Origin: Acidobacteriaceae bacterium
GTDB lineage: Bacteria; Acidobacteriota; Terriglobia; Terriglobales; Acidobacteriaceae
Reading direction: 5' to 3'
Length of the DNA stretch: 64,000 nucleotides
Assembly (NCBI GenBank): GCA_025360645.1
Contig: JANYBT010000059.1
Coordinates: 1 to 64,000 of the forward strand
The notes below the pieces were generated by a model that worked only from the letters and a program-made list of their open reading frames with translations, had not been told where the DNA came from and ran no database searches. The stretch's first letter is position 1. Each line of letters begins with the position of its first letter. A program made the position numbers and the translations under genes. Shown here piece after piece: positions 5,801 through 36,834 of the stretch.

Positions 5801-6829
5801 ATGATGCGTTACGTTTCCCTTGCAGTCGTACTCATCCCATTATTCAGTTGGGGACCGGCACAGGCCCAGACCCTTGCCGCAGGCAATGGGCGGAGCAGCG
5901 CGTCGTCTGCCGCAATCGCGCCAGAGACCCCAGTCGTTACTCTGGAGGGACTTTGTGACCAGGAGGCGTTCTCGATTGCGAAGCCGGTTCGCACGCCGGA
6001 CACCGGTAAGCCTACGGTTGGCGAGCCGGGCTGCCAGTCGGTGATTACTCGCCGCGACTTCGAACAACTCTCCGCTGTAGTCGCCCCGAATGTGAATCCC
6101 GCGAGCGCTTTGCAGTTAGCTCGCTTCTACAGCGAACAACTCGCATTCGCCCACAAGGCCCGTGAACTTCACCTGGATAAGGATCCTCATTTCGAAGAAA
6201 TTCTCCGCTTTACATACCTTCAGGTACTGTCGCGCGCGCTCAACAATCGGCTGCAAGAGGAGGCAGACCGCTTTGCCGAGACCGAATTCTCCGCGGCTGT
6301 GAAACTACATCCCGAGCAATTTGAACAGGTTTATCTCAGGCAGATTTCCATTCTCAAACAGAAGAAACACAAGGTCGGGCCCGCATCGACGGGAACGCGC
6401 GACACCGCTGCCGAACAGGCTGCGATGAAGTTGGTGGCGGAGGACATTTACCGTCGAGCGACAGGGGGGGAAGATTTTGCCAAGCTGCAGAAAGAAGCCT
6501 ATGCGGCTTCGGGTAACCCCGAGGACTCCCCGGACTCAGAAGTGGGATTGGTTACCCGCGCACAACTGGGAACGTTCCACGAGGCGATATTCGGAGTGCC
6601 TGCCGGCCAGATCTCTCCGCTTCTCGATGGACCGGAAGCCTGGCACATCTTTCGTATTGTTTCCAAGGGCGCGATGTCACCCCACGACGCCAAGCAGATG
6701 ATCGCGGGACAGCGTTTGAAAGAAACCCTGGATGCGATGCGGGACTCGGTTGGATCTAAACTCAATGATGGCTACTTCACGGCTCCCCCCGATGTTGACC
6801 CGGCCCAAGTGGGCGTGGAAGCGAAGTGA
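5801..6829 (+). CDS. exported PpiC-type (parvulin-like) peptidylprolyl isomerase
   Basis: A 342-residue periplasmic protein with a signal peptide ending near AQAQ. A helical SurA/PrsA-like N-terminal part (residues 85-180) precedes a parvulin-type region at about 195-320 (GEDFAKLQKEA..., DSEVGLVTRAQLGTFHEAIF, GPEAWHIFRI). In the family such proteins isomerise X-Pro bonds or act as chaperones for envelope proteins. The start is ATG 5801, where GGAGG sits 5 nt upstream; an in-frame ATG at 5735 lacks both this site and the signal peptide. The canonical parvulin domain is divergent here, so a pure chaperone role is possible. Confidence 0.75.
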   Translation: MMRYVSLAVVLIPLFSWGPAQAQTLAAGNGRSSASSAAIAPETPVVTLEGLCDQEAFSIAKPVRTPDTGKPTVGEPGCQSVITRRDFEQLSAVVAPNVNPASALQLARFYSEQLAFAHKARELHLDKDPHFEEILRFTYLQVLSRALNNRLQEEADRFAETEFSAAVKLHPEQFEQVYLRQISILKQKKHKVGPASTGTRDTAAEQAAMKLVAEDIYRRATGGEDFAKLQKEAYAASGNPEDSPDSEVGLVTRAQLGTFHEAIFGVPAGQISPLLDGPEAWHIFRIVSKGAMSPHDAKQMIAGQRLKETLDAMRDSVGSKLNDGYFTAPPDVDPAQVGVEAK

Positions 6830-31840: not shown

Positions 31841-32626
31841 TTACTTCAGCGACACCGAACCATCCCACACCTTGAGCAGCAGGAGAGCGCCCACTAGAGC
31901 GATGCTGACGCTCAACAGCGTGCCAATCAGGAAGTATTCCGCAAACTCCTCCTTGAGTTCCGGAAAGCGCGCGATCGATTTGGCGGCCAGGATCAGTCCG
32001 ACCAGCGAAGGGGCCTGCATCAGCAGAGCGGTGAGAATCAGGAAGCGCTCCAGCCATCCGATATACAGTCCGGCATTGCGCAATTGGGTGGCACTCTCGC
32101 CCAGGGCCCGGCCTGCCCCGGTGGAGAGATTGCGGGTGAGATAGCGGATGAGATATCCCCCTCCGAACACGACGGCCACAAAGACCACTGCCGCCTGCAG
32201 AACTCGATCTTGAGTGGGAAGGGACCATTCCCAGGGGGAACCGGGACGCAGCACGCCGGGAGGAAGCAGCCACCACACCAGAACCAGAATGCTGCTGAGG
32301 TGGAGAGCCTGATCGACTAGGAAGGTGCCGACGGAATCCGCAGCCCACTGGTGGTGGCTCAGGAGGCGCTGCTTGAGGAAATCAATGGCCAGGTGAACCC
32401 CGAGGTAGAGCAGCAGGGCTCCGACCGCGCCCGGCGAGAATTGCATCCAGGGCCGCGCGAACAGCGTAAGACAGCCGAGCAGGACGACGCCGTGAATGAG
32501 ACCATGTTGCAGGTAGGCTGCGAAGCCGCGCCGCTTGCCCAGGACAATGCGGGAGGATTGCAAAGGGAAATCAGCCAGCAGATGGGCCAGCAGGACGGCC
32601 AGAAAGATTCGTTCGGTGGGTTGCAT
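31841..32626 (-). CDS. DUF3307 membrane protein, partner of SatD
   Basis: A 261-residue polytopic membrane protein. The family signature HLLADFPLQ lies near residue 15, then LGVHLAIDFLKQRL. I count six to seven hydrophobic segments; the last forms the C-terminus (LIGTLLSVSIALVGALLLLKVW). DUF3307 has no known biochemical function. ATG 32626 is preferred: an in-frame TTG at 32665 falls inside an operator-like palindrome. Three palindromes lie 22-95 nt upstream of the start, which suggests control by SatD, encoded next door on the same strand. Confidence 0.75.
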   Translation of the reverse strand: MQPTERIFLAVLLAHLLADFPLQSSRIVLGKRRGFAAYLQHGLIHGVVLLGCLTLFARPWMQFSPGAVGALLLYLGVHLAIDFLKQRLLSHHQWAADSVGTFLVDQALHLSSILVLVWWLLPPGVLRPGSPWEWSLPTQDRVLQAAVVFVAVVFGGGYLIRYLTRNLSTGAGRALGESATQLRNAGLYIGWLERFLILTALLMQAPSLVGLILAAKSIARFPELKEEFAEYFLIGTLLSVSIALVGALLLLKVWDGSVSLK

Positions 32627-32641
32627 GTTTTGTGCAGATCC

Positions 32642-32725
32642 GTTAAGTTGCACGTTTATGTGCAAGATTGTTAAGTTGCATGTTTATGTGCAAATTGGTT
32701 AAGTTGCACGTTTTCGTGCAATCAT
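32642..32725. promoter_or_regulatory. operator cluster A: three 28-bp repeats, each with an 18-bp palindrome
   Basis: Three direct repeats of exactly 28 bp begin with GTTAAGTTGCA at 32642, 32670 and 32698. Each holds a palindrome TTGCA(C/T)-N6-GTGCAA: 32648-32665, 32676-32693, 32704-32721. The third is read through as the last codons of satD. The cluster lies just upstream of the DUF3307 gene. Confidence 0.85.
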
Positions 32726-33370
32726 GTTTTCTTCTACAAGAAACTCTTGCATGGTCTGCCGCACTTGGATCATCTGCCAGAAGAAGCCGCGACTGAGGTT
32801 CCGTGAGACGGTGGAACCATGACGGCGCATCTGGCGCGCAGTCGCATCTTGCTTGCGGGTCTTCATCTGGGTATTGATGGTCTGCCATTGTTTTTCCGAA
32901 GTGCCGCGCAATAGGGTGTCGTGCAATAAGTAGATGGTGTTGGCCACATTATCCAGCCGGAGGCTTCCGGAATGAAACACGGTGAGGGATCCGGTGCGAT
33001 TGCGCCGCGTCTTGAGATCGGTGAGAGCTTCGCGGGCGCGTTCGAAGGCTTGACCGCAAGCGAACTGATTCACCGGTCGGCGGCGGGCCCCAATGACTTG
33101 GCCGATTCCGACCGCAATCCAAAGCTGCATGGGATAGAAAAAGCGCCGGAGATCGAAGATGATCTGGGGGGCATGCCAGGGACGGGAGAGAATGCCCTCG
33201 AATTCGTCGCCGGCGGTGACGGCATACTCCGACAGGATGAGTTTGTTCCGCTGATGGAGGCGAGAGAGCCGCCGCAGCAACAGGTCACGGTGGGCGCTGA
33301 ACTCCGGGACGCGGCGAGAAGCCACGATATCGACGGTCACGACCGCATACACTTGAGGGGCTTTGCCCAT
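32699..33370 (-). CDS. satD: SatD family protein: cyclase-like domain plus helix-turn-helix
   Basis: A 223-residue cytosolic protein of the SatD family, named from the secretion and acid tolerance operon of Streptococcus mutans. Residues 8-120 read like a class III nucleotidyl cyclase or GGDEF palm: VVTVDIVASR (Asp14), VTAGDEFEGIL (Gly54-Asp55-Glu56), then LWIAVGIGQV and ACGQAFERAREAL, in the order of the cyclase fold. Residues about 165-200 (TARQMRRHGSTVSRNLSRGF) look like a helix-turn-helix. Palindromes on both sides suggest that it binds DNA and controls itself and the membrane gene. Whether it makes or only binds a nucleotide is unknown. Confidence 0.78.
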   Translation of the reverse strand: MGKAPQVYAVVTVDIVASRRVPEFSAHRDLLLRRLSRLHQRNKLILSEYAVTAGDEFEGILSRPWHAPQIIFDLRRFFYPMQLWIAVGIGQVIGARRRPVNQFACGQAFERAREALTDLKTRRNRTGSLTVFHSGSLRLDNVANTIYLLHDTLLRGTSEKQWQTINTQMKTRKQDATARQMRRHGSTVSRNLSRGFFWQMIQVRQTMQEFLVEENMIARKRAT

Positions 33371-33405: not shown

Positions 33406-33453
33406 TTGCACGAAAGTATGCAATATCTCATACTTGCACATTTATGTGCAAGT
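33406..33453. promoter_or_regulatory. operator cluster B upstream of satD: two palindromes 28 bp apart
   Basis: TTGCACGAAAGTATGCAA (33406-33423) and TTGCACATTTATGTGCAA (33434-33451) share the arms of cluster A and the same 28-bp period. The second extends to a near-perfect 22-bp palindrome (33432-33453). They sit 36-83 nt upstream of the satD ATG. Confidence 0.85.
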
Positions 33454-35354: not shown

Positions 35355-35631
35355 CGCGGACGCTTTCCTTTTAGATGCGAACGAGACGCAGCAGTTTCGA
35401 GTTCAGGAACTGGGGGAGACACAAAACGTCAGCTGGCAAGGACAATTTTTGTCAGTACGACGGAAAGTGGCAAGAGCGCAGGCGAAGCCGGGGGGATTGG
35501 ACATTGAAAATAAAGGGCGGGGAGGGCGAGGGAGCGAACCACTTTGGTAACTCGGGCTTGGAGTGGCAAGTGCATGTATCCCGGTGGACGTTGGTTCGAC
35601 CAACGGAAAATCTGGGAAACGAGGAATGCAC
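35355..35631. other. divergent region between uvrC and the first pilin gene
   Basis: No gene is supported. The notable feature is a perfect hairpin CGTTGGT-TCG-ACCAACG at 35589-35605, 15 nt before the GAGG ribosome binding site of the pilin gene. It could affect translation or mark a protein site. Confidence 0.5.
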
Positions 35632-36153
35632 ATGCGCAAACAAAAAGGCTTTTCGCTGATCGAACTACTGATTGTTGTGGCTATCATTCTGATCATTGCG
35701 GCGATCGCTATCCCCAACCTGCTGCGCGCACGGATGGCGGCGAACGAAGCATCGGCGGTGGGATCGATCCGCACCGTTAACACGGCAGAGGTGACCTACA
35801 CGTCGACCTATCCGACGGTAGGCTACGCGGGGACGTTGCTTGCCCTGGGCGGGGCCCTGGGAACCACGTGTACGCCGAGCACGGCGACTGCCTGCCTGCT
35901 GGATGGAGTATTAGCCAATAACGGAAGTCCGGCGGGTTCCGGAAAGAGTGGGTACAACTTTGCGATTACCCCGGGAGCCACCGCAGGGGGAGTGGTCATT
36001 CAGTACAGCGCATCCGGGGTTCCGATTACGGTGAACCAGACGGGCATTCGGGCTTTTTGCTCGACCGAGGATGCGGTGCTGAGGGTGGATCCGGCGGGAG
36101 TGGCGTCCAGTGCCCACGATACCTGCCTGGCGTTTGACCCGCTCAATAACTAG
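35632..36153 (+). CDS. type IV pilin-like protein (1 of 2)
   Basis: A 173-residue prepilin. A short positively charged leader (MRKQKG) is followed by the class III signal FSLIELLIVVAIILIIAAIA, with Gly at -1, Phe at +1 and Glu at +5. The head has two likely disulfide cysteine pairs (TTCTPSTATAC; FCSTEDAV...HDTC). ATG 35632 has GAGG 7 nt upstream; ATG 35626 would add two residues. A near relative lies immediately downstream. No assembly ATPase, prepilin peptidase or secretin gene is in the window, so whether it is a major pilin, minor pilin or pseudopilin is open. Confidence 0.88.
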   Translation: MRKQKGFSLIELLIVVAIILIIAAIAIPNLLRARMAANEASAVGSIRTVNTAEVTYTSTYPTVGYAGTLLALGGALGTTCTPSTATACLLDGVLANNGSPAGSGKSGYNFAITPGATAGGVVIQYSASGVPITVNQTGIRAFCSTEDAVLRVDPAGVASSAHDTCLAFDPLNN

Positions 36154-36309: not shown

Positions 36310-36834
36310 ATGCGCAAACGAGACCGAGGATTTTCGCTGATTGAGCTGTTGATTGTGGTCGCGATTATTTTGATCATCGTGACCATCGCCATCCCCAACT
36401 TCACCGGGACCAAGATTTCCGCCAACGAAGCGGCTGCGCAAGGAACGCTTCGAGCCATTAACACCGCGGAGGTGACCTACAACTCGACGTACTCCTCGGT
36501 GGGTTATGCCGGGACGCTGGTGGCACTGGGCCAACCGCTGAGTGCGGCGTGTGTGGCCAGTCCAACGAGCGCGTGCCTGATTGACGGGGTGTTGGCGAAC
36601 AACGGCAACCCGCCGGGATCGGGAAAGAGCGGCTATTTGTACTCGATTACGCCTGGGGCAGCGGTGGGCGGGGTGCTGGTGCAGTACACGGCGCTGGCGG
36701 TTCCGGTGAAGAAAGGGCAGACCGGCAACAAGGCATTCTGCGCGACGGAGGACGGAATAACGCGCGTCGATCCGGCCGGAGTGGCGAGCAATGCCCACGA
36801 CTCCTGCGTATCGTTCAATCCGGCGAGCCAGTAG
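36310..36834 (+). CDS. type IV pilin-like protein (2 of 2)
   Basis: A 174-residue prepilin, clearly a tandem duplicate of the previous gene. Leader MRKRDRG, then FSLIELLIVVAIILIIVTIA with Glu at +5. Shared blocks include NTAEVTY, VGYAGTL, DGVLANNG, GSGKSGY and RVDPAGVAS. The four head cysteines are conserved. The preceding GGGGGATCC gives a usable ribosome binding site. Conservation of core and framework with divergent surface residues suggests subunits of one filament or alternating pilins (inference). Confidence 0.88.
   Translation: MRKRDRGFSLIELLIVVAIILIIVTIAIPNFTGTKISANEAAAQGTLRAINTAEVTYNSTYSSVGYAGTLVALGQPLSAACVASPTSACLIDGVLANNGNPPGSGKSGYLYSITPGAAVGGVLVQYTALAVPVKKGQTGNKAFCATEDGITRVDPAGVASNAHDSCVSFNPASQ

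Follow-up and report, generated by a model that had tools for sequence, protein, structure and literature searches.

The SatD protein encoded in the window, the 64,000-nucleotide stretch that was analysed (positions 1 to 64,000 of contig JANYBT010000059.1 from an Acidobacteriaceae bacterium, assembly GCA_025360645.1), is interpreted here as a single-chain autorepressor of the satD-DUF3307 gene pair, in which a cyclase-type palm is joined to a helix-turn-helix that would act on palindrome arrays and would be switched by a metal-nucleotide. The probability of this interpretation is estimated at roughly two in three. It is supported by computed results, namely the fold, the helix-turn-helix, a conserved acidic pair, the operator arrays, the pairing with DUF3307 and the confinement of the array to this locus. 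The new observation is a set of five palindromes, in two groups with 28-bp steps inside each, that flank satD and cluster nowhere else in the genome. In the open-licence literature searched no mechanism was found for SatD or DUF3307, and a report in a subscription journal could exist; SatD carries only a secretion-and-acid-tolerance label, repeated by one paper (PMC10326533). The features of the locus are listed below.

32699..33370, minus strand: satD, 223 amino acids; open reading frame with its ATG at 33368-33370, PF16264 match, AF2 model
32972..33349, minus strand: palm domain, residues 8-133; from AF2 secondary structure and invariance
33329-33331, 33203-33211 and 33032-33034, minus strand: codons of the palm residues D14, G54-D55-E56 and R113, by arithmetic from the ATG
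32789..32896, minus strand: helix-turn-helix core, residues 159-194; from AF2 helices and matches to HTH families
33434..33451, unstranded: candidate operator 1, upstream of satD, TTGCACATTTATGTGCAA inside a 26-bp palindrome; palindrome scan
33406..33423, unstranded: candidate operator 2, upstream of satD, TTGCACGAAAGTATGCAA, 28 bp from operator 1; palindrome scan
32704..32721, unstranded: candidate operator 3, TTGCACGTTTTCGTGCAA, within the last satD codons; palindrome scan
32676..32693, unstranded: candidate operator 4, TTGCATGTTTATGTGCAA, 28 bp from operator 3; palindrome scan
32648..32665, unstranded: candidate operator 5, TTGCACGTTTATGTGCAA, 28 bp from operator 4; palindrome scan
32621..32637, unstranded: possible degenerate sixth site, TTGCATGTTTTGTGCAG, over the likely DUF3307 start; suggested by the sequence and by ortholog sites
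31841..32665, minus strand: DUF3307 membrane protein, PF11750 at 61 bits; open reading frame of 274 amino acids from a TTG

The window protein was assigned to SatD by Pfam (PF16264; its 43.1 bits exceed the curated cut-off of 29), and the window pair resembles the SatD family (PF16264) with DUF3307 (PF11750) in both Pfam score and gene order. The coding strand of satD is the minus strand, and on the plus strand 32699-33370 contains stops and no coding frame. The motifs pointed out by the sequence-only reading were all located in this minus-strand frame: D14 in VVTVDIVASR, G54-D55-E56, GIG at residues 88-90 and GQAFERAREAL at 106-116. The gene pair is flanked by uvrC upstream and a leucyl-aminopeptidase-like gene downstream; the further satD loci of the family that were compared do not share these neighbours. 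Elsewhere in the window two tandem type IV pilin-like genes (35563-36153 and 36310-36834, with a start of the GFSLIELLIVVAIILII type) lie upstream of an ABC transporter gene.

The structure of SatD was predicted with AF2 from an alignment of the window protein and 67 SatDs taken from genome contigs, giving a confident model (pLDDT 90.4, pTM 0.86). The model follows the SatD layout of a palm (8-133), a linker helix (137-155), a helix-turn-helix (159-194) and a long C-terminal helix (197-222). The palm contains strands at residues 8-15, 45-51, 56-61, 83-90 and 129-133 and helices at 24-42, 64-78 and 107-121, and the C-terminal part contains helices at 137-155, 159-171, 174-180, 185-194 and 197-222. 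The helix-turn-helix proposed earlier for the C-terminal stretch TARQMRRHGSTVSRNLSRG, which corresponds to residues 177-195, was borne out by these helices, with which weak matches to numerous HTH families agree; a PDB sequence search with SatD returned essentially HTH matches alone.

When the model was compared with solved structures using Foldseek, the top match was the adenylyl cyclase Ma1120 (E 2.2e-4), followed by the PucR-type regulators 3onq and 9f80, soluble guanylate cyclase and Rv1625c, and OptS (Panoptes mCpol) was also among the matches. VIA-align placed Rv1625c first (Z 10.2, rmsd 3.4 over 141 residues), then other class III cyclases, and after these Cas10, GTP cyclohydrolase III and GGDEF domains, so that the AF2 model has the palm of the class III cyclase homology domain. 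A fold unrelated to the palm had been named beforehand as the outcome that would speak against a cyclase-like domain; model and structure comparison instead gave a palm with class III cyclases as top matches and its acidic positions kept. In profile comparisons the relationship was weak. With hhalign the class III cyclase profiles gave probabilities of 18-22% (P about 0.001), and the matches to class III and GGDEF profiles were weak, local and above reversed controls, which is not decisive. The Guanylate_cyc profile matched neither the window SatD (Pfam at E up to 1, where SatD was the sole match) nor anything in G000, and the PucR/CdaR domains PF17853 and PF13556 had no match in the window SatD at E up to 1. 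The GG(D/E)EF signature is replaced in SatD by AGDEF or AWDEF, in which the first glycine is absent. The kinship of SatD with class III cyclases therefore rests on fold and motif order, since the profile-profile similarity is weak. SatD shares with these cyclases (Rv1625c, Ma1120, Guanylate_cyc) the fold, the motif order D...GD...GxG...AR and the metal-type aspartates, but differs from them by the weak profile similarity, by the added helix-turn-helix and, on inspection of the alignment, by an apparent lack of the canonical class III asparagine.

In the model D14 is situated at the end of strand 1, and G54-D55-E56 lies in the hairpin that joins strand 2 to strand 3. In class III and GGDEF proteins the metals sit at these positions, the end of strand 1 and the strand 2-3 hairpin. 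Judged by placement in the predicted secondary structure, D14 and D55 of SatD appear to match the two metal-binding aspartates.

The residues D14, S18, T52, G54, D55, E56, G88, G90, G106 and R113 were invariant in the 68 aligned SatDs. This set was collected with two search patterns, one of them GDEF, which biases the invariance of the GDEF part; D14, S18 and R113 lie outside the patterns. Relatives gathered without the GDEF pattern (phmmer or Pfam matches, and plasmid genes located through their DUF3307 neighbour), including those missed by Pfam, also have D14, S18 and D55 invariant. Compared with the typical SatD family the window branch is divergent, with W or G at position 54 and with D105 and P107 lost; its clade retains D14, S18, D55, E56 and R113, and G54 is replaced by W in 8 of 10 members. 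In three plasmid relatives E56 is replaced by S, and across ten diverse plasmid-type relatives the only fully invariant residues are D14, S18 and D55. The W54 and S56 relatives indicate that the two acidic positions, and not the full G-D-E triplet, are the constant feature. In the region of the third motif R113 is invariant and mostly H, Y or F is found near the expected N, in a register that is uncertain.

The combination of a palm and a helix-turn-helix in one chain is not wholly unprecedented. The PucR/CdaR regulators (MabR Rv2242, BAD_0249) are transcription factors that likewise join a GGDEF-like palm to a helix-turn-helix, but MabR, the member checked, is without the catalytic motif, which is replaced by HGTWL (PMC11617747). 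In SatD the acidic pair is retained, and the globin domain that MabR carries in addition is lacking; SatD is further set apart by the operator arrays spaced at 28/29 bp and by a constant membrane partner. By analogy with these regulators the palm of SatD might be a dead structural or dimerisation module that takes no nucleotide, the signal arriving by another route such as contact with the DUF3307 protein. The high Foldseek rank of 3onq and 9f80, the degenerate GGDEF-like domain of MabR and the apparently missing asparagine are all in keeping with this, but a purely structural palm would have no need of D14 and D55, which are invariant in very distant SatDs, and we consider it unlikely, though worth keeping in mind.

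The DUF3307 gene is the next gene after satD and lies on the same strand. Comparison with the homologous locus L031 suggests that translation actually begins at the ATG of 'MQPTERIF' (32624-32626). AF2 predicted an all-helical protein (pLDDT 87.9) with no convincing match among solved structures (the top scores being a Foldseek E of 0.16 and a Z of 6.4), and these poor matches are no proof of a new fold. Among 71 aligned proteins encoded downstream of satD a G..IG..ER motif was present in 67 and a DUF3307 match in 52, the conserved C-terminal motif of DUF3307 being G..IG.LER...K..AR...FAEY.L.GTL.S. In several partners from Acidobacteria (L052-L060, for example L053:2420-3295) the N-terminal half is atypical for DUF3307 and the C-terminal G..IG..ER is kept, suggesting that it is the C-terminal half of the partner that stays constant.

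SatD is sporadic in the family, being found in 22 of 398 genomes, and a single-sequence search of the genome contigs with the window SatD returned no relatives. On plasmids, 'hypothetical' genes located 5' of DUF3307 proved to be distant SatDs (E. coli pEC34A, Klebsiella, Vibrio lentus, Salinivibrio, Segatella and Sphingomonas), which were missed by Pfam or scored under its cut-off; their layout is GD(I/L)..S, then GDEF, GDSF or GDSW, with a helix-turn-helix in most. A satD-DUF3307 pair is also present on a Halorientalis plasmid. Two of the plasmids with a SatD-like gene leading into DUF3307 are very small, pEC34A of E. coli (L184:1792-3481) and a 4.4-kb Klebsiella plasmid (L185:362-1937). On a Sphingomonas insulae plasmid (L190:1820-6271) the distant satD-like gene and the DUF3307 gene adjoin genes whose annotations read Pycsar effector, E2-associated protein and adenylate/guanylate cyclase. 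A search of the complete E. coli genome collection found no counterpart of the E. coli plasmid pair, and no SatD was found in viral and phage collections.

The sporadic distribution, the small plasmids and the one adjoining Pycsar cluster raised the idea of a defence role. Neither the window SatD nor the DUF3307 protein had a match in PADLOC-DB 2.0.0. The neighbours of 80 satD loci are mostly housekeeping genes (biotin ligase, pantothenate kinase, nucleoside kinase, topoisomerase). By inspection, the PADLOC matches near satD loci appear for the most part to be RecQ-type helicases and other general enzymes, and the flanking genes, read in the same way, tend to speak against a defence island. 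A defence role is therefore retained as a minor hypothesis for which no clear sign was found.

The Pycsar and Panoptes (mCpol OptS) systems resemble the SatD locus in having a palm protein with a membrane-protein partner, but SatD has in addition a helix-turn-helix and an operator array, and DUF3307 is without a convincing fold match. In a system of that kind SatD would be a working synthase of a nucleotide that acts on the DUF3307 membrane protein, the autoregulation serving as dosage control. Such a role would agree with the conservation of the acidic pair, G-D-E and R113, with the constancy of the membrane partner, and with the sporadic occurrence, small plasmids and Sphingomonas insulae cluster described above. 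It fits poorly with the apparent absence of the canonical transition-state asparagine, with the loss of G54 in most of the window's clade and of E56 in plasmid relatives, and with the lack of a PADLOC match for the window proteins or an obvious defence signal in the flanks; this role is judged improbable.

The palindromes of the window are 18 bp long and follow TTGCAC-N6-GTGCAA with at most one mismatch. Two of them lie upstream of satD, at 33406 and 33434, and the other three come between satD and DUF3307, at 32648, 32676 and 32704; the steps inside each group are 28 bp. The final satD codons (IARKRAT) form one palindrome, so that operator and coding sequence overlap at 32699-32722. The genome was searched by pattern matching with up to one mismatch, using the backwards pattern as a control. 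All five palindromes clustered at satD, the other eight matches were singles and the backwards control gave five matches; no comparable array was found elsewhere in this genome by the pattern search. Compared with the typical SatD family the window branch has a separate operator array 5' of DUF3307.

The arrangement recurs in relatives. Most of nine orthologs at about 50% identity share the upstream pair at a spacing of 28 or 29 bp, with arms of TTGCAC or TTGTAC, and in most an extra palindrome lies at the satD stop codon, with a weaker site 28-29 bp beyond it that covers the DUF3307 start, so that the possible sixth site of the window has its counterpart in a degenerate site across the same start codon. 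The ortholog L033 has palindromes after the satD stop (around 6456-6700) and no DUF3307 gene by tblastn; its partner may have been lost. Distant SatDs show the same geometry with other sequences (TCACCC-N6-GGGTGA, CAAGG-CCTTG, AATCAAGC-type and TGCAT-type), and in the Vibrio lentus relative, whose score falls under the Pfam cut-off, TTAGCC-N6-GGCTAA occurs three times in 28-bp steps. Over 79-80 satD promoters palindrome pairs were 29 bp apart in 13 loci, 28 bp in 5 and 58 bp in 10, the remaining distances from 20 to 60 bp occurred in at most two loci each, and shuffles averaged close to 0.1, and at most 0.25, per distance. Pairs at 28/29 bp were present in 18 of 79 satD promoters against 1 of 1,841 control windows of the same loci, the array loci not being independent events since they are partly related; the phyla represented include Acidobacteria, Firmicutes, Spirochaetes and Eisenbacteria. 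With a looser score arrays were found in 46 promoters of the combined set, and many satD loci show none. In these 46 promoters operator similarity correlated with recognition-helix similarity after palm similarity was removed (partial r 0.27, permutation p 0.0005), and the correlation may partly reflect shared ancestry because it is absent among distant pairs (r 0.04). That the palindromes are instead RNA hairpins, terminators or a repeat element is very improbable: as hairpins they are perfect or nearly so, and one scores as terminator-like, but they are not dispersed through the genome, they keep a fixed 28/29-bp spacing across unrelated sequences, and they are located in the promoter region 5' of the start codon.

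A dedicated, clade-specific array at its own promoter, with none elsewhere in the genome, together with its own helix-turn-helix, makes SatD most simply an autoregulator. For the earlier proposal of a one-protein sensor or synthase plus repressor, the clade-specific arrays at satD promoters lend support to the repressor part, and the sensor or synthase part is carried forward in conditional terms. In the autorepressor model a SatD dimer would bind the tandem 18-bp palindromes, spaced by 28-29 bp, across the satD promoter and, for the clade of the window protein, a second set in front of the DUF3307 gene. Bound SatD would repress both satD and the membrane-protein gene. In the orthologs L033 and L034 operator 1 spans a -35-like TTGCAC that has TCTAAT at a distance of 17 bp, and operator 2 comes immediately after it, suggesting repression by occlusion; in the window the promoter scan found no sigma-70 consensus promoter, so the sign of regulation is one that we infer. 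The conserved acidic pair suggests a metal-bound nucleotide as the signal, and this complex in the palm, or its turnover, may alter the SatD dimer and thereby switch repression, the output of the module being the DUF3307 membrane protein. An extended version, in which SatD combines a catalytically active palm with a repressor domain of its own and so makes or destroys a nucleotide signal, reads it at the DNA and gates the membrane protein, possibly in a defensive capacity on plasmids, is speculative and on balance doubtful.

The satD and DUF3307 pair spans many phyla, including archaea. SatD is now provided with a predicted fold, a candidate DNA target, a proposed two-gene regulon, predicted key residues and ready-made candidate operator DNA, and the predicted switch design and evenly spaced DNA sites make its function directly testable. 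If the palm binds nucleotides, SatD would be a one-chain nucleotide-responsive repressor with a cyclase fold in which the metal site is kept, unlike MabR of the PucR family. If SatD is enzymatically active, the pair would constitute a widespread, undescribed nucleotide-signalling module in bacteria and archaea.
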